Assembly: GCF_025244865.1 (NCBI RefSeq)
Contig: NZ_CP104272.1
Coordinates: 3,224,001 to 3,288,000, forward strand
Reading direction: 5' to 3'
Length of the DNA stretch: 64,000 nucleotides
Source of the DNA: Arthrobacter sp. zg-Y1110
GTDB taxonomy: Bacteria > Actinomycetota > Actinomycetes > Actinomycetales > Micrococcaceae
A model generated the notes under the pieces. That model was given only the letters and a program-made list of their open reading frames with translations, was not told the origin of the DNA and did no database searches. How positions within the stretch are numbered: position 1 is the first letter of the stretch; each line of letters opens with the position of its first letter. Positions 1,584 through 12,321 of this stretch are shown here, in pieces. The translations under genes were made by a program, and so were the position numbers.

Positions 1584-2291
1584 TTAGATCGGGGAAGGCG
1601 GCTGGTGGTTCTGGGCCAGGAACGCGTTGAGCGTGCTGGTGCGGTGCGCGCGGGCGGCGTGTTCGACGTCGGCCGCCGGGGCGCCGGCGTCGATCAGGTC
1701 CAGCAGCGCCTCGTGTTCCTGTACCGAGGCGTGCGCCCGGTCCGGGACGTACCGGAAGACGGAGGAGCGCATGCGGCCCAGCCGGTTCCAGCCGCGGTGG
1801 ACCAGGTCCAGGATGTGCGGATTGGGGCAGCGGGCGTAGAGCAGGGCGTGGAACTCGGTGTTCAGGGCGGTGAAGCGGACCGGGTCGAAGTTGTCGAGGA
1901 CCTCGCGCATCTGGTTGTTCAGTTCCCGGGCCTTAGCCAGTTCCTCGGCGCTGATGCTCGGGGCGGCCAGGGCGGTGGCGGCACCTTCGATAATGCTGAG
2001 GGTCTGCATGGTGTGCAGGTACAGGTCCGGATCGATGCCGGCCACGGTGGCGCCGACGTTGCGGACAAAGTGCACCAGCCCTTCGGCTTCGAGCCGGCGG
2101 ATGGCTTCGCGGACCGGGACCACGCTGAAGCCCATCTCCGTGGCGATGCTGCTGAGCACTAGGCGGTAGCCGGGGCTCATTTCGCCGCCGAGGATGCGGT
2201 CCTTCAGCTGGGTGTAGGCCTGCTCCGACTTGGAGCCGGCGGCGGGGCTGGTTTTCGTGGCTTGCCCGTTGCTGTTGGCTGCTGCGCTCAT
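1584..2291 (-). CDS. GntR-family (FadR/FCD-type) transcriptional regulator
   Basis: 235-residue regulator with an N-terminal winged helix (AYTQLKDRILGG, then VPVREAIRRLEAEGLV, the classic GntR recognition region) and a C-terminal all-helical FCD ligand domain with conserved acidic and histidine residues (TEFHALLY, EHEALLDLI, HAARAH). The start at 2291 is chosen because its ATG overlaps the TGA of the upstream fusion gene in ATGA style, which implies translational coupling; a longer reading to 2330 would overlap that gene by 43 bp. It very likely senses an aromatic-pathway intermediate and controls its own operon through the palindrome at 3768-3793. Lies between the fusion enzyme and hpaE. Confidence 0.88.
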   Translation of the reverse strand: MSAAANSNGQATKTSPAAGSKSEQAYTQLKDRILGGEMSPGYRLVLSSIATEMGFSVVPVREAIRRLEAEGLVHFVRNVGATVAGIDPDLYLHTMQTLSIIEGAATALAAPSISAEELAKARELNNQMREVLDNFDPVRFTALNTEFHALLYARCPNPHILDLVHRGWNRLGRMRSSVFRYVPDRAHASVQEHEALLDLIDAGAPAADVEHAARAHRTSTLNAFLAQNHQPPSPI

Positions 2292-3757
2292 GCCTGTTCC
2301 GCTGCCCAGGCCTCGTACTTTTCCTTCCACGCGGCGTTCATCGGGTACAGCCCGTCGACGCCGTGTCCGGCCTTCACCATTTCGGCGATGAACTCTTCCT
2401 GGTGTTCCTGCCGAATGCAGGCCTCTACCAGCTCCTCCGCGATGGCCGGCGGGATGACGAGGATGCCGTCGTCGTCGGCCACGATGATGTCGCCGGGCTG
2501 CACGGTGGCGCCGCCGCAGGCGATGGTGATGTCGGTGTCCCAGGGGACGTGCTTGCGGCCGAGGACGGCGGGGTGCGGGTTGGCGCAGTAGACGGGCAGG
2601 TCGATGCCGGCCACGGTGGAGTAGTCGCGCACGCCGCCGTCGGTGATGATGGCTGCGGCGCCGTTGTGCTTGGCGCGGAGGGCGAGGATGTCGCCCAGGG
2701 TGCCGGTGCCCTTTTCGCCGCGGGCTTCCATCACGAGGATTTCACCGTCGCCCACGGAGTCGATGGCGCGTTTCTGCGCGTTGTAGCCGCCGCCGTGGGT
2801 TTTGAAGAGGTCCTCGCGGTTGGGGACAAAGCGCAGGGTGCGGGCGGTGCCGACGACCTTGCGGCCGGGGCGGGTGCCGGTGAGGCCGTCGATGGAGACG
2901 TTGTTCAGGCCGCGGGCGCGCATCTGCGAGGACAGGGTGGCGGTGGCGACGGATTCCAGCTTCGCCTTGAGTTCCGGGGAGAGGGTTTTGGCCTGTTCCT
3001 TGGGTGCGAGGCCCGCCTTTTCCGCGGAACCCCAGGCTTCTTCGCGCTGCTTGTCGTCAATCTTGGGCTGTGCGCCGAAGGGGGCCAGCGGCGTCGTGCC
3101 GTCGGTGACGGTGGTGGCGAGGCGGCCGGTGGTTTTGTCCGTGCCAGGGACGTCGACTTCGACTTCGAGGCGGTCGCCGGGGACGGCCACGGAGGCGCCG
3201 GCGGGGGTGCCGGTGAGGATCAGGTCGCCCGGTTCCAGGGAGAGCAGCTGGGAGAGGTCGGCCACCAGCTGGGCGAAGGGGAAGAGCAGGTCTGCGGTGG
3301 TATCTTCCTGGGCGAGTTCGCCGTTGACCCAGGTACGGACGCGCAGTGCGGCGGGGTCGACGTCGGCCGCGTCGAGGATGTGCGGACCGACCGGGGTGAA
3401 ACCGTCGCCGCCCTTGGAGCGGAGGTTGGAGCCTTTGTCTGCCCAGCGCAGGTCGTAGACACCCAGGTCATTGCTGGCGGTCACTCCCCCGACGTAGCTC
3501 CACGCGTCCTCGATCGAAATGCGGCGGGCGGTCCTGCCGATGACCAGGGCGATTTCGCCTTCGAAGCCGAGCAGTTCACAGCCCGCCGGGCGCTCCACGC
3601 TGCCGCCGGTCAGGGCCAGGGAGGAGCTGGGCTTGAGGAAGTAGGAGGGCTGTTCCGGGGTGCGTCCGCGTTCTGCTGCCCGCGAGGGGTAATTGATGTG
3701 GACGGCGATGACCTTGCCGGCCTGCTTCAGCGTGTCCGTGGTGGCGTCGTTGCCCAT
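2288..3757 (-). CDS. Fusion enzyme: FAH-fold isomerase/decarboxylase (HpaG-like) plus RraA/HMG-aldolase-like domain
   Basis: 489 residues. Residues about 10-225 are a fumarylacetoacetate-hydrolase fold (GFEGEIALVIGR with the metal-binding E-x-E, ASNDLGVYDLRWADKG, GDLILTGTPAG), matching the HpaG branch that decarboxylates and isomerises 5-oxopent-3-ene-1,2,5-tricarboxylate. Residues about 265-485 are an RraA-like fold (VATATLSSQMRARG, ITDGGVRDY with the R-D pair used by HMG/CHA aldolases, PGDIIVADDDGI). RraA-fold aldolases cleave 4-hydroxy-2-oxo acids to pyruvate, so this half could replace HpaI, but that is inference. A Shine-Dalgarno AGGAGA sits just upstream of ATG 3757. First gene of the operon; 4-bp overlap with the GntR gene. 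Confidence 0.82.
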   Translation of the reverse strand: MGNDATTDTLKQAGKVIAVHINYPSRAAERGRTPEQPSYFLKPSSSLALTGGSVERPAGCELLGFEGEIALVIGRTARRISIEDAWSYVGGVTASNDLGVYDLRWADKGSNLRSKGGDGFTPVGPHILDAADVDPAALRVRTWVNGELAQEDTTADLLFPFAQLVADLSQLLSLEPGDLILTGTPAGASVAVPGDRLEVEVDVPGTDKTTGRLATTVTDGTTPLAPFGAQPKIDDKQREEAWGSAEKAGLAPKEQAKTLSPELKAKLESVATATLSSQMRARGLNNVSIDGLTGTRPGRKVVGTARTLRFVPNREDLFKTHGGGYNAQKRAIDSVGDGEILVMEARGEKGTGTLGDILALRAKHNGAAAIITDGGVRDYSTVAGIDLPVYCANPHPAVLGRKHVPWDTDITIACGGATVQPGDIIVADDDGILVIPPAIAEELVEACIRQEHQEEFIAEMVKAGHGVDGLYPMNAAWKEKYEAWAAEQA

Positions 3758-3793: not shown

Positions 3794-3999
3794 AGGGTTA
3801 CATGTGGTGCGGGTCACGTCAAGGGGCTTGGAAGCAACGATTCAATGTTGAGCCCTCGTGTCGTCGGCGATAGCCTTCGGCGGCCAGACATAATGAATCA
3901 CACAGTCGCAGCTATCTGGCGTTTGCATGGAATGACTCGTAACAATGTGTCAACGAATAGCTGGTTTGATGGTCGATGGAGCATCGACTTGGGGGAAAG

Positions 4000-4689
4000 A
4001 TGAAAGACACAAGCAAGGTAGCTGTGGAGCGCTCGCCTCACACCCGGACGCAGCATGCCCTTCGGCTGCTAGTGCTTCTTGACCGCACCGGCGGGGAGGT
4101 TCTTGAGGGGGATCCAGTGGGTGCAGTCAAAGCTGTGCGTAGCGAATTGCGTCTCCAAGCAATGGACTTTTGGATGCGCAACCCTGACTACCTGGCCGAC
4201 GAACTTATTTCGCAGGTTGAAGAAGGAAGGCTCGACTCTCGCTACTTGAACGTGGCGCGTTCCCTGCTGGACGATCCTGAGCCGGATTTGCATTACTATC
4301 CGATGCCCCGGTGGTTCTATGGGGCGTATGAGGCGATCGATGATGCGATGGCTCTACTCGAAACCTACGGGCTGGCAATTTTCCGCCGGTCGGGAGAACC
4401 AGGAACGAGGAGCCTCCGAAACCAGTTGTTCATAACTGATGCGGGTTCGACCGCCGTGACAGAGATCAGTCATGACCCGGTGCTCGGCTGGTACACGCGC
4501 CAGGCAGAACTAGTGGCCGCCGCTGCCGGTGAGACGGTCGGGAGCAAGTTGAAGGAACGGCAGTACGAGCAAGCGACTTACGCCGGCACAGAGTTGGGAT
4601 TGGACATAGCACCAATCGCGGAACGAGTGCGAGAGCACCTTGAGAATGCTGTGTTTCCTGTAGCCAAAACAACCGGAGGTGGACTGTGA
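4000..4689 (+). CDS. Small winged-helix-like component of an ABC-three-component-like module (middle component)
   Basis: 229 residues from ATG 4000, which is preceded by a GGGGGA Shine-Dalgarno; an in-frame ATG at 3976 would add 8 residues with no ribosome site. No catalytic motif is visible. The pattern LVLLDRTGGEVL, LQAMDFWMRNP, AIDDAMALLETYGLA and LFITDAGS looks like two helix-rich stretches around a winged helix, the pattern I associate with the middle component of ABC-3C systems. Its stop overlaps the ATPase start by 4 bp, so the two are co-translated. Codon use is visibly less GC-biased than flanking genes, suggesting transfer. Function within the module is inferred from position, not from a recognised family hit. 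Confidence 0.6.
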   Translation: MKDTSKVAVERSPHTRTQHALRLLVLLDRTGGEVLEGDPVGAVKAVRSELRLQAMDFWMRNPDYLADELISQVEEGRLDSRYLNVARSLLDDPEPDLHYYPMPRWFYGAYEAIDDAMALLETYGLAIFRRSGEPGTRSLRNQLFITDAGSTAVTEISHDPVLGWYTRQAELVAAAAGETVGSKLKERQYEQATYAGTELGLDIAPIAERVREHLENAVFPVAKTTGGGL

Positions 4690-6866
4690 GTCTTCTTGCT
4701 GATGAGATCGTGAAGGTGCTCGGCCGCAGGAGAAAGGGTAACCGTCTTGAGATGAGTTCCGCCCGCGTCGATGAGATTCTCACGGACCTCGGCATCCCGA
4801 CTTCAGCCTCCAAGGGAGTACCGGTGCATCTCCGTGTGGCACGTGTTACTTTCAGGGGGACGAAGCGGCTGGATCCATCGCATCCCGATGCAAAGGGATG
4901 TCAGTTGGAGTCAATGGATGCTGTCAGCAGTCCGCTGCCAGATGGCACTGATCCTGCTACGAATCCGTCCGATTTGACAGTCCCTGGCATGAATTCGGAG
5001 GGCGCTACAAGCGATGGGCCTATTGTGCGCGCACTGGTCCCCTTTGACTTTGTATGGGAGCCGGTTGACGGCGTAAACGGTATTGGCTCAGAACACAACT
5101 TGCGTGGCAAATCGAGCATTATGAACCTCTTGTTATGGTCGCTTTCTGGAAGATGCTCGGAGTTTTCCATTCCAGTGAAGCGGTGGATCGAACACGTCGA
5201 GGTTGACTGGTTCGTTGGGCCCGAGAGGCTGCGAGTAGCCTTCGATGCTGACAATGGCGAAGTCAGAAATGGTACGGTCACCGTTGTCGGAAAAGACGGT
5301 GCAATGGGGACAGCTCTGGTCTCATTCGATAATGACTCCTTCGAGGACGCGATGAGTTCGGTGATGATGAATCGTCTCCGGCTAGAGCCATTCACCGTGT
5401 CGCAGTCTGGGAAATCGGTGACGCACAGATGGTCGTCTTATGTAAACGCGCTGTGGGTTCGCCCTAAGTATTTGAAATCCATCATCGGCAAAGAATCAAC
5501 TCTCAGCGTCCGGCTGATGCAGATGTTTATTGGCACTGACTGGGTGCCAGTTCTGGCAACCGCTGCAACTGTCGCAGGGACACTAGGGTCTGAGCAAAAC
5601 CTCTCGGAAGCCCGGACAAGAACTGCGACCGAAGCTGTGGAGAGCGCCAGAGCTGAGGCCCTTAGGAATGTGGGGGAGGTCAAAGCGAAAATCGGTGCGC
5701 TCCCGACTGACGTTCCCGACGCCGCGAAAACTGCCAGCGCTAACGCTGAGATCAGCGAGCTGATCCGTCAACTACATGACTTGGATACTCAGCTTCTGAA
5801 GCGCTCGATTGCTGCGGATACGGTGCGGCAACAGCTGAAGGTTGCAAAAGCGCATCAGAACACCCAGTATGAGGACGCGCTGCTGAAAAAATTCTTCCAT
5901 CAGATGGCACCAACGGTGTGCCCACGGTGTACTGCAACGGTCACAGCCGAGCGTCGTGCTGCTGAGCCGGAGGAACACAAATGCTCAGTGTGCACCAGTG
6001 ATCTCAATCTGGCGGCGCTTGAGACTGACGTTATCGTGGCCGCCTCTGCTGAGCAGAGCACCTCTAGTGTCTTGGTTGCGTCCGCGGCCTCCGCTCTTGA
6101 CGGGAGCGAAGCAGACGATGCGCCGGTCGACGAGATTGAAGCACTTGAGCGTGCGATGGCGGATATCGAGAACAACATGGATTCTCTACGTTCTCAGATC
6201 AGTGCGCTGCAGGTGCATCGCGATGAACTTGTAGAAGAGACAGAGACAGACGCTTCGCTACTCGCGGCAGCTGAAGAGCGGAGGTTATTAGAAATCGAGC
6301 TGGCTCGGGCTGAGGGAGCTGCCGCGGCTTTGGCTGATCCGGTCCGCCATACGGATGAATCTCGTGTAGACCCGATACACCTTGCTATTGCTGAAGTTGC
6401 GAAAGAGGTCCTCGCTGATTGGGTCAAGGCTCACCAGGATCCTCTGCTTGATCAGATTTCCGCAGAGATCGAGCGATTGGTGGTGAACTTCGGCGCCGAC
6501 AGTTTAAGCAACATAGCGCTCGACGGCGCTGCGAACATGAAACTGCGGCAGAACGGTGATCTGTCAATGTACAGCGCGGTGACGCCTGGCGAGCAGTTGC
6601 GGTTGAAGATCGCGACAGTTATTGCGCTAATCAAACACGGATATGCAGAAAATATTGGCCGCCATCCAGGGTTCCTACTTCTGGACTCGCCCGCGGCGGA
6701 GGAGATGCCTGACGGGGATCTGGCGACAATGGTCTCTGCGCTTCTGGAAGTTGCGGCAGAAGCGCCGATGCAGATCATCGTTGCTACTCGCAGTACCGGC
6801 CCCCTCATGCACCTTCTGCCGAGAGAGAGCCGCCTTATTGCTGACGACAACGCCTTCGTCTGGTGA
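4686..6866 (+). CDS. SMC/Rad50-like ABC ATPase with zinc ribbon (ABC-3C-like)
   Basis: 726 residues, starting at GTG 4686 behind a strong GGAGGT. The N-terminal half carries a Walker A variant with RGKSS at 140-144 inside VNGIGSEHN-LRGKSS. Coiled-coil-like segments follow (about 300-395 and 480-560), separated by a CPRC (412/415) plus CSVC (433/436) zinc ribbon, like the hook of Rad50-type proteins. The C-terminal head has an ABC signature TPGEQLRLK (G635, E636), Walker B FLLLDSP (D667) and an IIVATRS H-loop strand. The LLLDSP form lacks the usual adjacent glutamate but E672/E673 follow closely. This is a DNA-associated head-hinge-head ATPase. Overlaps the upstream gene by 4 bp; 66 bp before the nuclease gene. 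Confidence 0.8.
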   Translation: MSLLADEIVKVLGRRRKGNRLEMSSARVDEILTDLGIPTSASKGVPVHLRVARVTFRGTKRLDPSHPDAKGCQLESMDAVSSPLPDGTDPATNPSDLTVPGMNSEGATSDGPIVRALVPFDFVWEPVDGVNGIGSEHNLRGKSSIMNLLLWSLSGRCSEFSIPVKRWIEHVEVDWFVGPERLRVAFDADNGEVRNGTVTVVGKDGAMGTALVSFDNDSFEDAMSSVMMNRLRLEPFTVSQSGKSVTHRWSSYVNALWVRPKYLKSIIGKESTLSVRLMQMFIGTDWVPVLATAATVAGTLGSEQNLSEARTRTATEAVESARAEALRNVGEVKAKIGALPTDVPDAAKTASANAEISELIRQLHDLDTQLLKRSIAADTVRQQLKVAKAHQNTQYEDALLKKFFHQMAPTVCPRCTATVTAERRAAEPEEHKCSVCTSDLNLAALETDVIVAASAEQSTSSVLVASAASALDGSEADDAPVDEIEALERAMADIENNMDSLRSQISALQVHRDELVEETETDASLLAAAEERRLLEIELARAEGAAAALADPVRHTDESRVDPIHLAIAEVAKEVLADWVKAHQDPLLDQISAEIERLVVNFGADSLSNIALDGAANMKLRQNGDLSMYSAVTPGEQLRLKIATVIALIKHGYAENIGRHPGFLLLDSPAAEEMPDGDLATMVSALLEVAAEAPMQIIVATRSTGPLMHLLPRESRLIADDNAFVW

Positions 6867-6932
6867 TACCGATACGTTCGATCTGTAATCCGAAAACCAT
6901 TATGTGAATCGTCAGTTTATTGAGGAGTCTAA

Positions 6933-9020
6933 ATGAGCTGCCCCGATGCTGAAACGCTCGCTGGCGCTGTGCTGGCCGTAGCTCGGAACTCCCAAGGAAA
7001 ACCCTTTCCAAGCTCTGCGGTCCAAGACCTCGGCGGGTGGGGTCGAATCGCCTCCGGGGCCACCACTCTCATCGGCCAATCTGCACTTCCGATAGTTGCG
7101 AATCTCGTCGCCAGGGATGCGGAGGAAGGGGATGGCGACGCAGCTGCGGCGGTGGAAGCGGTCGCCGACGCAGTTATCGCTACCGAGCAGCCATCCCTAC
7201 TTCGGGACTCGCTTGAAGCGCTGCTGGCGAGCTCTGTCATCACCCAGATTGTCGGTGAAAGGCTCGTCGAGGGCCTTGAGCCGGTAGCTGCCGGATTTCT
7301 TAGACGAGAAAGATCAGAGGTCGCCGACCTGGCATCGGCGGACGCACTCGAGGTCATGACACGGCTCGTTGCGGTTGGGTACGGGTCACACTTCTCATTG
7401 CTGGCGTTGCTCCAGAAATTTGGCGCTCCAACAGTCGCTCCGATGGCGCGAGCTGTCATCCGTTCGGTGAGCATAGCCGTCGATGTCTGGCCTGAAGCTG
7501 ATCGGCTCGTCGAGGTTGTCCGCGTCATAGGTGGCGTTGACGCGGTGGTCGGCGGTGATCCGTCGCTCACCCATGCCGTGGAGTCAGATGCCGCATGGGC
7601 TCTCGCAATGGTGTCCACGGTCCGCTCGTTGAGGGCCGCATCGGTTCAGGAAATGGCCCCGCACCTCCAAGACGCTGCCAGGTTTTTTGCAGTCTCAGCG
7701 CACGCCCATAAACGACCGGATGCACACCCAATGCTCAGCGTTGTCGAAGCTCTCCGCGAACTCGTCGCCGGGATCGTGTCCAGTGACGAGATCGGAGCCA
7801 TGAGCACAGCACCGCTCTCGGGGAATTTATTGACGGTTTTGCGTGAGCAGATACGAAGATTCAGCGTCGACTCCAGCGGCTTAGACCATTGGTACGGCGA
7901 CGCCAAGCGGGTGACACTCACCGCGTGGTCGGCTTTGGCCGATGATCTCGAACGGATGGGTAAGCAACTAGGCAAGGATGGCTTTTATCAGGCTGAAGTC
8001 GTCATCCGGGATCTGCTGGCCATTTATACCAGCGCAAGAACGTTCCCTGTCGGCACCCACAGCATCGACATCTCCGGCGTTCAGGATCTGATTCAGCCGG
8101 TCATCACTAGCGGCTTCGCCAGCAAGGCTAGCCATTTGAGCAACCTTGAGGAGTACGTCGCCGACCTTGCTTCGCGCGGAGCTGGTGGACTCAACGATGA
8201 GGCGTCCGCTCAGCTCCACGCTGCCAATGGCATTATCGAGATCGCTCGGCGGGTGTCGAGGGGAGATGATGCCTCGGAAAAAGCAAGCAGCGGCGTCCTA
8301 TCCACGCCGCTGCCACCTACGCTTAGACTTCTTGTGCCTGCTGGTTCAGTTGACGAATACCAGCTGGCACAGGTCTCGCCGAAGACGCTTACCGATATAG
8401 CGCAACGGCTGGATCACGTAGCGGCCGGTCGCGCACATTTGAATCTTGTACAGCAAGAGCTCTTTGATCAGTTGCGCGAAGCGCTGTCCACCAGCCCGGA
8501 TTACAAAGGTCAAGTCGTATCAGTCGTCGACGAAGTCCTGCTGCTTATCCTCAACTTCCTCGTCAGCAGAACCGCATCCTCGGCTGGGCATTACAAATAC
8601 CTTTTCGATGCCAATGCGAAGGAGGACGCCATCCAGGAAGATCTATACAACTACCTGACAGGCAACCTCGGCGGCCGCGTCGAGTATGAGGTCTCCCATG
8701 TCGGAGGTGGGCGGGTTGACATCAGGCTGAAATTCGATGCCTGCGCGCTCCACGTAGAAATGAAGGTGGATGAAACCAGACTTCCGCTAAGCGATCGAAC
8801 GGCATATCTGAAGCAGACAGTTACATATCAGACGAATGACATTCGGATTGGTTTCTTAGTCGCGCTGCGCCATAAGGCATTCGATCCCACAGGTCCGCCG
8901 CCGCACATCAAGTCTCTAATCGGGCATACCATTTTTGGTATTGACGGCGACTCGGTGCCCCGCCACGTCATTCACGTTGCTGTGCCAGGCAGCAGGACCA
9001 ATCCATCGAGTTCCAGATAA
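6933..9020 (+). CDS. Large helical protein with C-terminal PD-(D/E)XK nuclease-like domain
   Basis: 695 residues; ATG 6933 has GAGGAG upstream. Residues 1 to about 540 are alanine- and leucine-rich helices without a recognised family, consistent with a HEAT/ARM-like scaffold. Residues about 565-670 show a PD-(D/E)XK pattern: D596 in GGRVDIRLKF, E609-x-K611 in LHVEMKVD, and a following Q628 in YLKQTVTYQ, with an upstream helix QEDLYNYL. This would be the nucleic-acid-cutting effector of the module. Known ABC-3C third components usually place the effector before a C-terminal partner-binding domain, whereas here the nuclease is last. AT-richer than the surroundings, like the two preceding genes. 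No function beyond nuclease can be assigned. Confidence 0.72.
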   Translation: MSCPDAETLAGAVLAVARNSQGKPFPSSAVQDLGGWGRIASGATTLIGQSALPIVANLVARDAEEGDGDAAAAVEAVADAVIATEQPSLLRDSLEALLASSVITQIVGERLVEGLEPVAAGFLRRERSEVADLASADALEVMTRLVAVGYGSHFSLLALLQKFGAPTVAPMARAVIRSVSIAVDVWPEADRLVEVVRVIGGVDAVVGGDPSLTHAVESDAAWALAMVSTVRSLRAASVQEMAPHLQDAARFFAVSAHAHKRPDAHPMLSVVEALRELVAGIVSSDEIGAMSTAPLSGNLLTVLREQIRRFSVDSSGLDHWYGDAKRVTLTAWSALADDLERMGKQLGKDGFYQAEVVIRDLLAIYTSARTFPVGTHSIDISGVQDLIQPVITSGFASKASHLSNLEEYVADLASRGAGGLNDEASAQLHAANGIIEIARRVSRGDDASEKASSGVLSTPLPPTLRLLVPAGSVDEYQLAQVSPKTLTDIAQRLDHVAAGRAHLNLVQQELFDQLREALSTSPDYKGQVVSVVDEVLLLILNFLVSRTASSAGHYKYLFDANAKEDAIQEDLYNYLTGNLGGRVEYEVSHVGGGRVDIRLKFDACALHVEMKVDETRLPLSDRTAYLKQTVTYQTNDIRIGFLVALRHKAFDPTGPPPHIKSLIGHTIFGIDGDSVPRHVIHVAVPGSRTNPSSSR

Positions 9021-9286
9021 GTTATGGAAACACGAATAGTGGTTATGGTTTTTGACCTAACTCAGATGCGTAAACCGATCATTAATGCCCATTCATGGCG
9101 CAAGTTGCAGCTGGAAAACAGGCTTTAGAGCTGATGCATCGGGGTGCCGGCGGCAGTGCTAGCACCCGACGCATGTGATGCGCCGCGCCCGTGGAATATC
9201 TGCAGCGGTTCGCGGCGTTGCCACGCTGTAGAACCTTCAGCCCAGGCTCCTCCTGCGCTGAAGCACGCAACAGAAGGAACCACTTA
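9021..9286. other. Intergenic junction between the ATPase/nuclease module and the OYE gene
   Basis: No gene seen. It marks the return from lower-GC module DNA to GC-rich chromosomal DNA. An imperfect hairpin has arms at 9134-9147 (ATGCATCGGGGTGC) and 9162-9174 (GCACCCGACGCAT), one mismatch and one bulge, loop of 14. It is not followed by a T-run, so it could be a module boundary, an operator for OYE, or a terminator without a T tract. Confidence 0.5.
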
Positions 9287-10366
9287 GTGAAACTCTTTAC
9301 CCCCCTCACCGTCGGCACCATGGAACTGCCCAACCGCCTCGTCATGGCACCGATGTCCCGCGTACGCGCCGACCGCAACGGCGTGCCCACCGACATCATG
9401 GTCGAGCACTACCGCCAGCGCGCCTCCATGGGCCTGATCATCACTGACGGCATCTACCCCTCCTTCACCGGCCAGGGCAACGCCCTGATGCCCGGCCTGG
9501 TCACCGAGGAACACGTCGCCGGGTGGAAGCGCGTCACCGACGCCGTCCACGAAGCCGGCGGCCGGATCGTCGCCCAGCTGATGCACTCCGGACGCGTCGC
9601 CCACGAAAACATCAACGGCGGCCGCCCCGTCGTCGCCCCCAGCGCCATCGCGGTTGAAGGCATGGCCCACACCTACGCCGGCAAGCAGCCCTTCCCGGTG
9701 CCGCACGCCCTCACCGAAGCCGAACTCCCCGGCGTCGTGCAGGACTTCGTCTCCGCCGCGCGGAACGCGATGAAGGCCGGGTTCGACGGCGTCGAGCTGC
9801 ACGGTGCCAACGGCTACCTGCTGCAGGAATTCCTCTCCCCCGTCTCCAACACCCGCACCGACAACTACGGCGGATCCCCGGAGAACCGCGCCCGCCTGGT
9901 CATCGAGGCCTTCCGTGCCGTGGCCGAGGCCGTCGGCGCCGAGCACACCGGCATCCGCATCTCCCCGGAACACAACATCCAGGGCGTGCTGGAAACCGAC
10001 CGCGCCGACGTGACCGCCACCTACACCGCCCTGGTGGACGGCATCGCCGATCTGAAGCCGGCCTACCTGAGCATCCTGCACGCCGACCCGGCCGACGAGA
10101 TGGTCCAGGGCCTGCGCCACCGCTTCGGCGGCCCGGTGCTGATGAACACCGGCTTCGGCACGGTCACCAGCCGCGAGGACGCCGTCATGCTGCTCGAGGA
10201 GGACCTGGCCGACGCCGCCGTCGTCGGCCGTCCCGTGATCGCCAACCCGGACCTGGCCCGCCGCTGGCAGGAGGACCACCCGTTGAACGAGATCGACCAG
10301 ACCACCGTTTACACCGACGGTGCCGCCGGCTACACCGACTACCCGGAACTGGCTCCGGTTTCCTAG
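9287..10366 (+). CDS. Old Yellow Enzyme family NAD(P)H:flavin oxidoreductase / alkene reductase
   Basis: 359 residues from GTG 9287, chosen because AGAAGGA lies 8 bases upstream and the protein then begins KLFTPLTVGTMELPNRLVMAPMSR (split here: KLFTPLTVGT, then MELPNRLVMAPMSR), the normal OYE start. FMN-barrel motifs are intact: AQLMHSGR, the substrate-binding H-x-x-N in VELHGANGYLLQEFLSP, YGGSPENRARL, and the phosphate-binding NTGFG near the end. The family reduces activated C=C bonds or nitro groups in the cytoplasm. Followed by a strong hairpin. Decayed fragments of closely similar genes occur at 11561-11686 and 24911-24988. Confidence 0.9.
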   Translation: MKLFTPLTVGTMELPNRLVMAPMSRVRADRNGVPTDIMVEHYRQRASMGLIITDGIYPSFTGQGNALMPGLVTEEHVAGWKRVTDAVHEAGGRIVAQLMHSGRVAHENINGGRPVVAPSAIAVEGMAHTYAGKQPFPVPHALTEAELPGVVQDFVSAARNAMKAGFDGVELHGANGYLLQEFLSPVSNTRTDNYGGSPENRARLVIEAFRAVAEAVGAEHTGIRISPEHNIQGVLETDRADVTATYTALVDGIADLKPAYLSILHADPADEMVQGLRHRFGGPVLMNTGFGTVTSREDAVMLLEEDLADAAVVGRPVIANPDLARRWQEDHPLNEIDQTTVYTDGAAGYTDYPELAPVS

Positions 10367-10619: not shown

Positions 10620-11420
10620 CTAGTGTTTTACGGAATCGGTCAAAATTAGATTATATACCGGCTTCCTAAAGGGGAACCTGAGCGGGCTCTTCAGTTCCTC
10701 ATAGAATACCTGCCACTCAAAAACAAGTGAGTCGATAAACATCTTGCCACTGATATAATATAATCGCTGTTCTTTAAAAACTCCGAATGCAGTGTCGCTA
10801 ATTGATTCAGCAAAGTGAACATCCAAGTCCGGAAGAAATACCCGAAGCTCAAATTCCCCCGCTGTCTCAGAAGCAACAAGGTTCTGGAGGGATGTATCCA
10901 AGTGCATACCTAGGTGAATGCCAGGAAGTTCGGCGGCCGGGGAGTTCAAAAAGGCAGCCACGCTCTCGTTCACTTTGAAGCCTTGTTCGGCGATTCTACA
11001 GCCAGCGTGTTTTAGCAAGTATTTACTTAGGTGCAGCACTTCTCGCCGCCAAGTGCTGCGTCCATAGATTTTCCGGAAATCTATGGAACGTTCATCCATG
11101 ATGCGTTCGCGGTGGCGAGCGTAGTAGGCAATGAAATCGGTGTATGCGCGATCAAATGGTTGACTTTGAGCATTGTTACAGACTTTACAGAGGATATTTG
11201 GAAACTTTATCAGTTTACTATCGGGGCCTTGCATAATCCGCAGCTTACTGTTTGTTTCGACTGCTGTAGGACTCAGGAATATTGATTCTGACTCCTTTTT
11301 GTTCGTAAATATGCGGCGGAGGTCTGTTTTCTTAACCTTGTGCTCGCCTGAGTCACCCGGTTTCCCGCACCACCAACATTTTCCTGCGGGGTGCGGTTGC
11401 ACTTTCCTTGCTTCGGTCAT
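10620..11420 (-). CDS. HNH-like (treble-clef) endonuclease candidate, AT-rich and probably acquired
   Basis: 266 residues. The N-terminus has a paired-cysteine zinc site, CWWCGK then CKVCNN about 60 residues later, with GEHKVKK (E-H) between them, the layout of HNH/treble-clef nucleases (CxxC, H, CxxCN). The rest is not recognised; it contains aromatic-rich strands (FELRVFLPDLDVHFAE, VFEWQVFYEEL). Base composition is far more AT-rich than any neighbour, a clear transfer signal. It sits alone, minus strand, between the intact OYE gene and a broken OYE 3' fragment. It might be a stand-alone anti-phage or restriction-type nuclease; that is inference from the motif and isolation. Confidence 0.6.
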   Translation of the reverse strand: MTEARKVQPHPAGKCWWCGKPGDSGEHKVKKTDLRRIFTNKKESESIFLSPTAVETNSKLRIMQGPDSKLIKFPNILCKVCNNAQSQPFDRAYTDFIAYYARHRERIMDERSIDFRKIYGRSTWRREVLHLSKYLLKHAGCRIAEQGFKVNESVAAFLNSPAAELPGIHLGMHLDTSLQNLVASETAGEFELRVFLPDLDVHFAESISDTAFGVFKEQRLYYISGKMFIDSLVFEWQVFYEELKSPLRFPFRKPVYNLILTDSVKH

Positions 11421-11560
11421 CCCTGAAGAATAATTAGTGAGACTGCAGGGAGCAAATGCGACTTCAATTATTTTTGCAGTCGATTGCCGGGGGGGGGGTA
11501 TCCGACTCCCTGACTAATCACCCGCACTCGCACTCGCACCGATAACTATCGCTGATCACG
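11421..11560. other. Intergenic, AT-rich then a G10 tract
   Basis: Upstream region of the HNH-like gene. It holds a run of ten G at 11489-11498, about 70-80 bp upstream of that gene's start. No ORF or RNA gene recognised. Confidence 0.5.
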
Positions 11561-11686
11561 GAGAACCGGGTCCGCCTCCTGTCACTGCCAGGAAGACCAC
11601 CCGCTGCACGAGTTCGCCCGAGGCACCGTCTACGCCGACGGAGCGCCGACTACACGGACTACCCGGAGCTGGCTCCGGTCTCGTAG
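11561..11686 (+). pseudogene. Broken OYE 3' fragment
   Basis: Two collinear pieces of an OYE gene are joined with most of the gene missing. GAGAACCGGGTCCGCCTCCT matches the ENRARL segment of the intact gene. Directly after it, from about 11587, comes the C-terminal end reading QEDHPLHEF, then TVYADG, then TDYPELAPVS and TAG at 11684-11686. A lost base near 11641-11650 shifts the frame between the last two parts. It differs from 9287-10366 by many substitutions, so it is an old paralogue rather than a recent copy. With the intact gene it brackets the AT-rich HNH-like gene. Confidence 0.8.
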
Positions 11687-11700
11687 CCGGCCGGCGAGCG

Positions 11701-12321
11701 TCATTGGCTCCTACCCGGGTCATTTGGAGGTACCGGCCGGCGCGTGCGGGTATTGATGCGGAATTCCGCATTCTGCGGAAGACCGGTCAAATCCACCTCA
11801 GCAACGTCGACATTCCGGTCCGTCCACGCGGTGGCCCTTCTCAGCACCTGCTCCTGGATGTCCTCCAGATGAAGCTTCTCCCCGCCCTCCAGCTGCTCTT
11901 CGATATGGCGTCCCACAACGGTTCCCTCGTCATCGAAAACGGCCAGGCTGACCGTCTTTTTCACGCTGCTGAGAGTCTTTTGGCTGCCGCGGTCGTGGAG
12001 GAGGCCGAACGCCGAGCAGCCCTCGATCCCCTCGGTTTTGAGCACGAAGGTGAGTTCATCGGCGGCTTCCATCCAGACAAAATTGTCGGTTTCCTCATTG
12101 GCCATAGGCCCCCACGGTCCTATGGTTGTTTCCTTTGTCTCGATATAGGTTTTTGCGAACTGCCGCTTGAACGGCTGGAACCTTTCGCCGTTCTGCATGC
12201 TAAGCGCGGTCAATTGGATATGGGCCAGGATGGGACGGGGCTCAAATCTCACCCGGTGGGTTATCCAGTGCAGGTTTTCGCCGCGGCGGACCAGCCAAAC
12301 GGGGTTGAAAACGTTGGACAT
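11701..12321 (-). CDS. Hypothetical protein
   Basis: 206 residues, no family recognised. Soluble, without a signal peptide or membrane segment. Mixed beta-strand and charged helix composition (FVWMEAADELTFVL, KKTVSLAVFDDEG, GEKLHLEDIQEQVL), with a basic proline-rich tail (TRTRRPVPPNDPGRSQ) that may be a read-through into degraded sequence. Start at 12321 is followed by MSNVFNPVWLVRRGENLHW. The gene ends 15 bp after the OYE fragment and is convergent with it. Moderate confidence that it is a real gene: codon use is reasonable on this strand, but a competing open frame exists on the opposite strand (11704-12456). Confidence 0.5.
   Translation of the reverse strand: MSNVFNPVWLVRRGENLHWITHRVRFEPRPILAHIQLTALSMQNGERFQPFKRQFAKTYIETKETTIGPWGPMANEETDNFVWMEAADELTFVLKTEGIEGCSAFGLLHDRGSQKTLSSVKKTVSLAVFDDEGTVVGRHIEEQLEGGEKLHLEDIQEQVLRRATAWTDRNVDVAEVDLTGLPQNAEFRINTRTRRPVPPNDPGRSQ

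Follow-up and report, generated by a model that had tools for sequence, protein, structure and literature searches.

A Lamassu-type operon with a C-terminal predicted nuclease in a variable chromosomal slot of Arthrobacter sp. zg-Y1110

Lamassu systems form a superfamily that, according to a review (PMC10586767), takes in the ABC-three-component (ABC-3C) systems and has LmuB as the component common to every system, with an LmuA built of an N-terminal effector domain and a variable C-terminal part, and PD-(D/E)XK nucleases already among its effector kinds. The studied systems are described as needing all components wherever this was tested and as abortive in outcome, with LmuA being set free and forming a tetramer (PMC10586767, PMC12409362), and DNA-end and hairpin sensing are listed for Lamassu in PMC12904381. 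The three-gene operon described here, lmuC-lmuB-lmuA, lies in a window of 64,000 nucleotides (the whole stretch of DNA analyzed) from Arthrobacter sp. zg-Y1110, contig NZ_CP104272.1, and is, judged by its profile matches, a Lamassu-type system of a branch already catalogued in PADLOC, and thus of a known kind. It departs from the Lamassu of that review in gene order (C-B-A) and in the polarity of LmuA, the predicted nuclease of which is C-terminal behind a helical, solenoid-like part.

The operon comprises lmuC (4000..4689, + strand), coding for a small partner of 229 aa that is a predicted winged-helix protein; lmuB (4686..6866, + strand; GTG start), coding for a 726-aa SMC/Rad50-like ATPase recognized by its PADLOC match and by residues kept across all 28 trios compared; and lmuA (6933..9020, + strand), coding for a 695-aa effector recognized by its PADLOC match, an AlphaFold2 model, and invariant residues. 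The genes are co-directional, with a 4-nt overlap between lmuC and lmuB and a 66-nt gap before lmuA; an earlier note made from the sequence alone had reported the overlap and the 66-bp spacing. The first ATG of the lmuC open frame is at 3976, and the start at 4000 is favored because most of the relatives listed are 227 to 231 aa long. Nearly full-length matches were found to the PADLOC models for LmuC (PDLC03872, E 1.6e-71), LmuB (PDLC03864, E 3e-192, with other LmuB models as runners-up at E 5.5e-15 and 1.6e-14), and LmuA (PDLC03853, E 1.1e-139), and because all three components are matched in this way the trio is assigned to Lamassu. It has the SMC/Rad50-like LmuB, the small LmuC that some systems lack, and an LmuA effector in the operon, which in the trios read lies next to its partners and points the same way. 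No tested feature separates the trio from the PADLOC branch defined by these models, which PADLOC gives without a description.

Neither Pfam nor NCBIfam has a match above family cut-offs for any of the three proteins. Pfam holds ABC-3C models, and none of these is matched by any of the three proteins at E values up to 1. Like ABC-3C, the trio combines an ABC ATPase, a small component, and an effector; the ABC-3C small component is reportedly in the middle of the operon (Krishnan et al. 2020), whereas that of the window branch comes first in the loci read, with no effector exchange seen. The earlier note had taken the trio to be a member or a new variant of ABC-3C and had proposed profile searches, including one with the Pfam ABC-3C models; the Pfam part came back empty, and the PADLOC Lamassu models match all three proteins. 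Its reading is supported in that the Lamassu superfamily counts ABC-3C (PMC10586767); the missing Pfam match and the first position of the small component set the trio apart from ABC-3C as described.

LmuB carries RGKSS (residue 140), CPRC (412), CSVC (433), GEQLRL (635), and LLLDSP (664), all named in the earlier note, which had placed the first three correctly. The P-loop is N138..G141-K142, the four-cysteine CPRC/CSVC element spans residues 412 to 436, and GEQLRL occupies 635 to 640; N138, G141, K142, C412, C415, C433, C436, G635, E636, and D667 are kept in all 28 trios.

LmuA has a helical N-terminal part (residues ∼1 to 545) followed by a predicted PD-(D/E)XK nuclease (∼560 to 688), and on residue conservation E564, D596, E609-x-K611, and Q628-xxx-Y632 constitute the PD-(D/E)XK signature, encoded at 8622..8828 (+ strand; codons E564 to Y632). 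The AlphaFold2 model (predicted local distance difference test 76.9, predicted template modeling score 0.62) has the order helix 564-582, strand 584-588, strand 595-600, strand 605-612, helix 623-631, and strand 639-646, placing D596 in strand 595-600 and E609 and K611 in strand 605-612, the strands expected for the D and (D/E)xK of this fold, with E564 in helix 564-582 and Q628 in helix 623-631. D596, E609, K611, and Q628, which had been picked out correctly from the sequence beforehand, do not vary across 46 aligned sequences, the window LmuA among them, and E564, E586, G593, R594, D596, E609, K611, Q628, and Y632 are invariant in the 28 more diverged trios; this double invariance argues that the motif residues are not a product of chance. 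The motif starts 100 to 117 residues from the C terminus in the 26 trios listed, and Pfam PDDEXK_9 matches weakly (E 0.28) in one of 14 LmuA homologues. This arrangement differs from the N-terminal effector domain of the review, with the nuclease residues at 564 to 632 of 695. Two much longer proteins share only part of LmuA, namely, a 1,436-aa protein (L062:8424-12734, - strand; model positions 516 to 654, E 1e-11) and a 1,404-aa protein (L063:5529-9743, + strand; positions 444 to 653, E 1.1e-10); neither has a Pfam match, and their nuclease may serve another system.

The closest relatives outside the branch are the Cap4/DUF4297-type Lamassu (type II, of the DdmABC kind; loci L064, L065, and L068), with which the trio shares an SMC-like sensor, a small component, and a nuclease effector. 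Model PDLC03864 matches their LmuB proteins (E 3e-34 for L064, 2.9e-28 for L065, and 4.3e-29 for L068), and PDLC03872 matches both LmuC proteins tested (E 1.8e-6 for L068 and 1.8e-5 for L064). All three LmuB proteins also have CPRC..CxxC and a D-S-P Walker B with serine, as does the window LmuB, and these features are therefore not peculiar to the window branch. Since the LmuB and LmuC models cross-match and the LmuA model does not, homology to ordinary Lamassu extends to LmuB and LmuC and is not detectable for the effector. The Cap4-type gene order is A-C-B rather than C-B-A, and DUF4297 is near the N terminus in two of the three Cap4-type LmuA proteins (in L064 after ∼180 residues), whereas the window nuclease is C-terminal. 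Neither the C-B-A order nor an LmuA with its nuclease at the C terminus was seen described in the titles and abstract openings searched, a scope that leaves out Krishnan 2020, Haudiquet 2025, Li 2025, and Millman 2022 and does not establish absence from print.

Within 394 genomes of the class, LmuA is matched in 17 and LmuB in 76 at an E value of 0.001, the LmuB matches being mostly weak; wherever the LmuB match is strong (E 6.7e-165 or better), LmuA adjoins it (9/9). The 17 genomes divide into nine with strong LmuB, two with strong LmuA and no LmuB, and six with weak or partial matches. Eleven loci were read from actinomycete genome contigs (Modestobacter, Nocardia, Mycobacterium, Mycolicibacterium, Actinocatenispora, Kutzneria, Actinokineospora, two Amycolatopsis, Frankia, and Phytoactinopolyspora), and 10 have the C-B-A trio and one an LmuA piece alone. 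The trio also recurs in all 10 of the plasmid records fetched from 34 with an LmuB relative, among them a plasmid of the alphaproteobacterium Sphingomonas aerolata (L120). For plasmid loci L117, L119, and L120, PADLOC matches all three proteins with the same models as the window trio, and in the eight annotated records of the 10 the genes are all labeled as hypothetical proteins. No LmuB relative was found in phage records or viral contigs. Several Streptomyces plasmid hits (H3, H5, H10, and H12) are close to a record end, one example lying 5.4 kb into a 1.7-Mb linear plasmid, echoing the enrichment of Lamassu at the ends of linear replicons noted in PMC10482375.

The plasmid relatives also bear on whether the trio is an addiction-like module of mobile DNA, with LmuB and LmuC merely restraining a toxic nuclease. 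The 34 plasmid records are in keeping with this, as is the L119 plasmid, which is conjugative and carries, a few genes upstream of its trio, a member of the zeta toxin family, but an SMC-like ATPase that conserves its P-loop and has four invariant cysteines is far oversized for a toxin block, and related systems defend (PMC10586767, PMC8565338); such a role is hardly likely.

Twenty-eight trios of the branch were compared, with lowest pairwise identities of 19% for LmuA, 20% for LmuB, and 29% for LmuC. Left out were three same-contig loci (L072 with L055, L053 with L077, and L078 with L060), two without LmuB or LmuC beside LmuA (L057 and L060), and L051, the LmuA of which is too diverged for single-sequence phmmer, although PADLOC matches it (E 2.3e-179) and its open frame holds the nuclease motif; L061 to L065 and L068 are not of the branch. 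The three genes are co-conserved, as the ABC-3C proposal had supposed, with Mantel r values of 0.981 for A-B, 0.939 for A-C, and 0.935 for B-C (0/5,000 permutations each), the set including close relatives, which overstates independence. The nuclease signature is present in the third gene of every trio (28/28) and also in L051, and no effector exchange was seen among the 28 trios, contrary to the variable effectors that the note had expected. A range of effectors is thus not found within this branch; the variety described in PMC10586767 is across Lamassu as a whole and not per branch.

The trio is probably a Lamassu-type immune operon in which LmuB and LmuC sense DNA and unleash the LmuA nuclease. 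The short SMC/Rad50-like LmuB probably dimerizes and, together with LmuC, would sense abnormal or foreign DNA such as ends, hairpins, or stalled replication, as suggested by the studied Lamassu. At rest LmuA would be kept inactive on LmuB/LmuC, probably through its helical N terminus; upon sensing it would be released or rearranged, probably to an oligomer, with the C-terminal PD-(D/E)XK nuclease then cutting DNA and stopping the invader, and the host probably dying or becoming arrested. By analogy with those systems, we infer for this branch the complex formation, trigger, release, oligomerization, DNA substrate, and cell outcome.

Several observations weigh against this proposal. LmuA has no cross-match to Cap4-type LmuA (model search, E 0.01), and the mechanism is therefore not transferable through LmuA homology. 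A structure search with the whole LmuA model gave match lists filled by the solenoid-like helical part. In genomes G426 and G347, a strong LmuA match has neither LmuB nor LmuC within the 18 kb read, that of G347 being a 153-aa piece; the corresponding genes are L057:7935-9830 (- strand) and L060:9239-9700 (+ strand), the second a C-terminal piece. Residue 668 of LmuB, where the Walker B catalytic glutamate is expected, is serine in 27 trios and alanine in one but never glutamate, and ATP turnover may therefore be slow or nil. Substitution of this glutamate is itself a Lamassu feature, although the replacement given in PMC10586767 is glutamine rather than serine or alanine.

The constancy of the effector also bears on the main rival explanation, which is possible but on the unlikely side, that LmuA stays on the SMC-like sensor and that the sensed DNA alone is cut in place, with no abortive infection, the helical part tethering the nuclease as in Rad50-Mre11 or Wadjet. 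A constant effector and tight LmuA-LmuB co-evolution, unlike what is seen with exchangeable effectors, would fit this, and QxxxY-type PD-(D/E)XK nucleases are often found in DNA-end machines. With Rad50-Mre11/SbcCD the trio has in common the pairing of a coiled-coil ABC ATPase with a nuclease, but the window nuclease is PD-(D/E)XK-like and not Mre11, there is an additional LmuC, the Walker B glutamate is lost, and LmuB has four cysteines per protomer rather than the one CxxC hook of Rad50/SbcC. The solenoid-like LmuA N terminus and the winged-helix-like LmuC resemble the fold kinds of SMC accessory proteins (HAWK and KITE; PMC10586767), which likewise accords with cutting in place. It is more doubtful still that the trio is a separate Lamassu branch in which LmuA is an integral subunit, an alpha-solenoid with a RecB-type (QxxxY) nuclease on an SMC-like sensor with a winged-helix LmuC, forming a minimal defense parallel of SMC-HAWK-KITE that would cut where the sensor stalls.

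The immune reading also draws on the location of the operon in a variable slot (3826..9262, approximate homology borders) between a gene at 2288-3757 (- strand), presumably FAH/RraA-like, and one at 9191-10366 (+ strand), presumably OYE-like, both matched in every one of the 29 genomes searched for this genus, a set that contains the window genome. Slots were compared in 13 of the 28 congeners, those with closely spaced flanks (L109 and L110 were also fetched and match at one border only). DNA homology ends at 3823-3834 in all 13 and restarts at 9216-9288 in 12, the exception being L108, where it returns only from 9414; the trio does look inserted between metabolic genes, as initially proposed. 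The cargo differs from the window trio in 13/13 and is mostly of low GC content, although not in L107 and only partially in L105, and neither a tRNA nor clear repeats were found at the slot ends.

PADLOC was run on 20 proteins of 11 slots (L106 and L107 lying outside this set) and has a match (E 0.001) in eight: TIR-type PDC-S35 (L096 and L105), an OLD/Gabija-like ATPase (L099), NsnB/HEC-03B (L100), PDC-S06 (L101), HEC-06 (L102), LmuB (L103, E 2.6e-43), and PDC-M32A (L108), some of these being broad ATPase matches; L097, L098, and L104 have none at this threshold. Ten other window genes, used as a control, give two matches, neither defense-specific (one to a LacI-like regulator over a stretch of 22 residues, the other to a GlgB-like enzyme). 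Since 8 of 11 slots are matched, against generic matches for 2 of 10 control genes, the slot looks like a defense hotspot of the genus. The L103 slot has SIR2-like, 212-aa, and LmuB-like genes (L103:2732-7022, - strand), which may be a Lamassu-like set that has a different effector, although the Pfam score of the SIR2-like protein is under the cut-off. TIR-type PDC-S35 candidates are at L096:2703-5565, where there are two with a 185-aa frame between them, and at L105:3371-4336.

The slot and the patchy distribution of the trio argue against a Rad50/Mre11-type complex for DNA repair or chromosome maintenance rather than defense, a reading that is very unlikely. LmuB does resemble SbcC-like proteins (PHROGs phrog_77, E 4e-8) and the archaeal SMC-related NCBIfam NF045487 (E 8.8e-4, far under the family cut-off), and its model matches 6 of 14 control genomes (the LmuA model matches one, Methanosarcina acetivorans). 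However, LmuB models are the best matches, the trio is in a slot of exchanged cargo with relatives on plasmids, and a protein search finds LmuB in only 3 of 148 relative genomes, the window's own included; the other two (G003 and G082, 26 and 28% identity) have the C-B-A trio as well.

The GC content of the trio is 0.57, compared to 0.686 and 0.685 in the two neighboring genes, and only 3 of 236 5-kb sliding windows are as GC-poor, possibly the trio's own. The earlier statement that its GC is below that of every flank is true of the immediate neighbors but not beyond them, as a gene at 10620-11420 (- strand) has a GC content of 0.468. This gene codes for a CWWC pattern near its start, has no family match, is present in the window genome alone among the 29 of the genus, and is probably a second insertion just past the OYE-like gene; PADLOC has no match for the two genes at 10620-12321.

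The operon represents a Lamassu branch, known from actinomycetes and from at least one plasmid of an alphaproteobacterium, in which the effector polarity is reversed and the loci sampled show no exchange of effectors, and in Arthrobacter it occupies a sharply bordered slot where congeners hold different, often defense-related, genes. Two models of the command of a nuclease by an SMC-like sensor, release and oligomerization versus cutting in place, can be told apart with this branch, and if LmuA were an integral subunit, the branch would be a bridge between Lamassu with released effectors and systems that cut in place, among them Wadjet and Rad50-Mre11.
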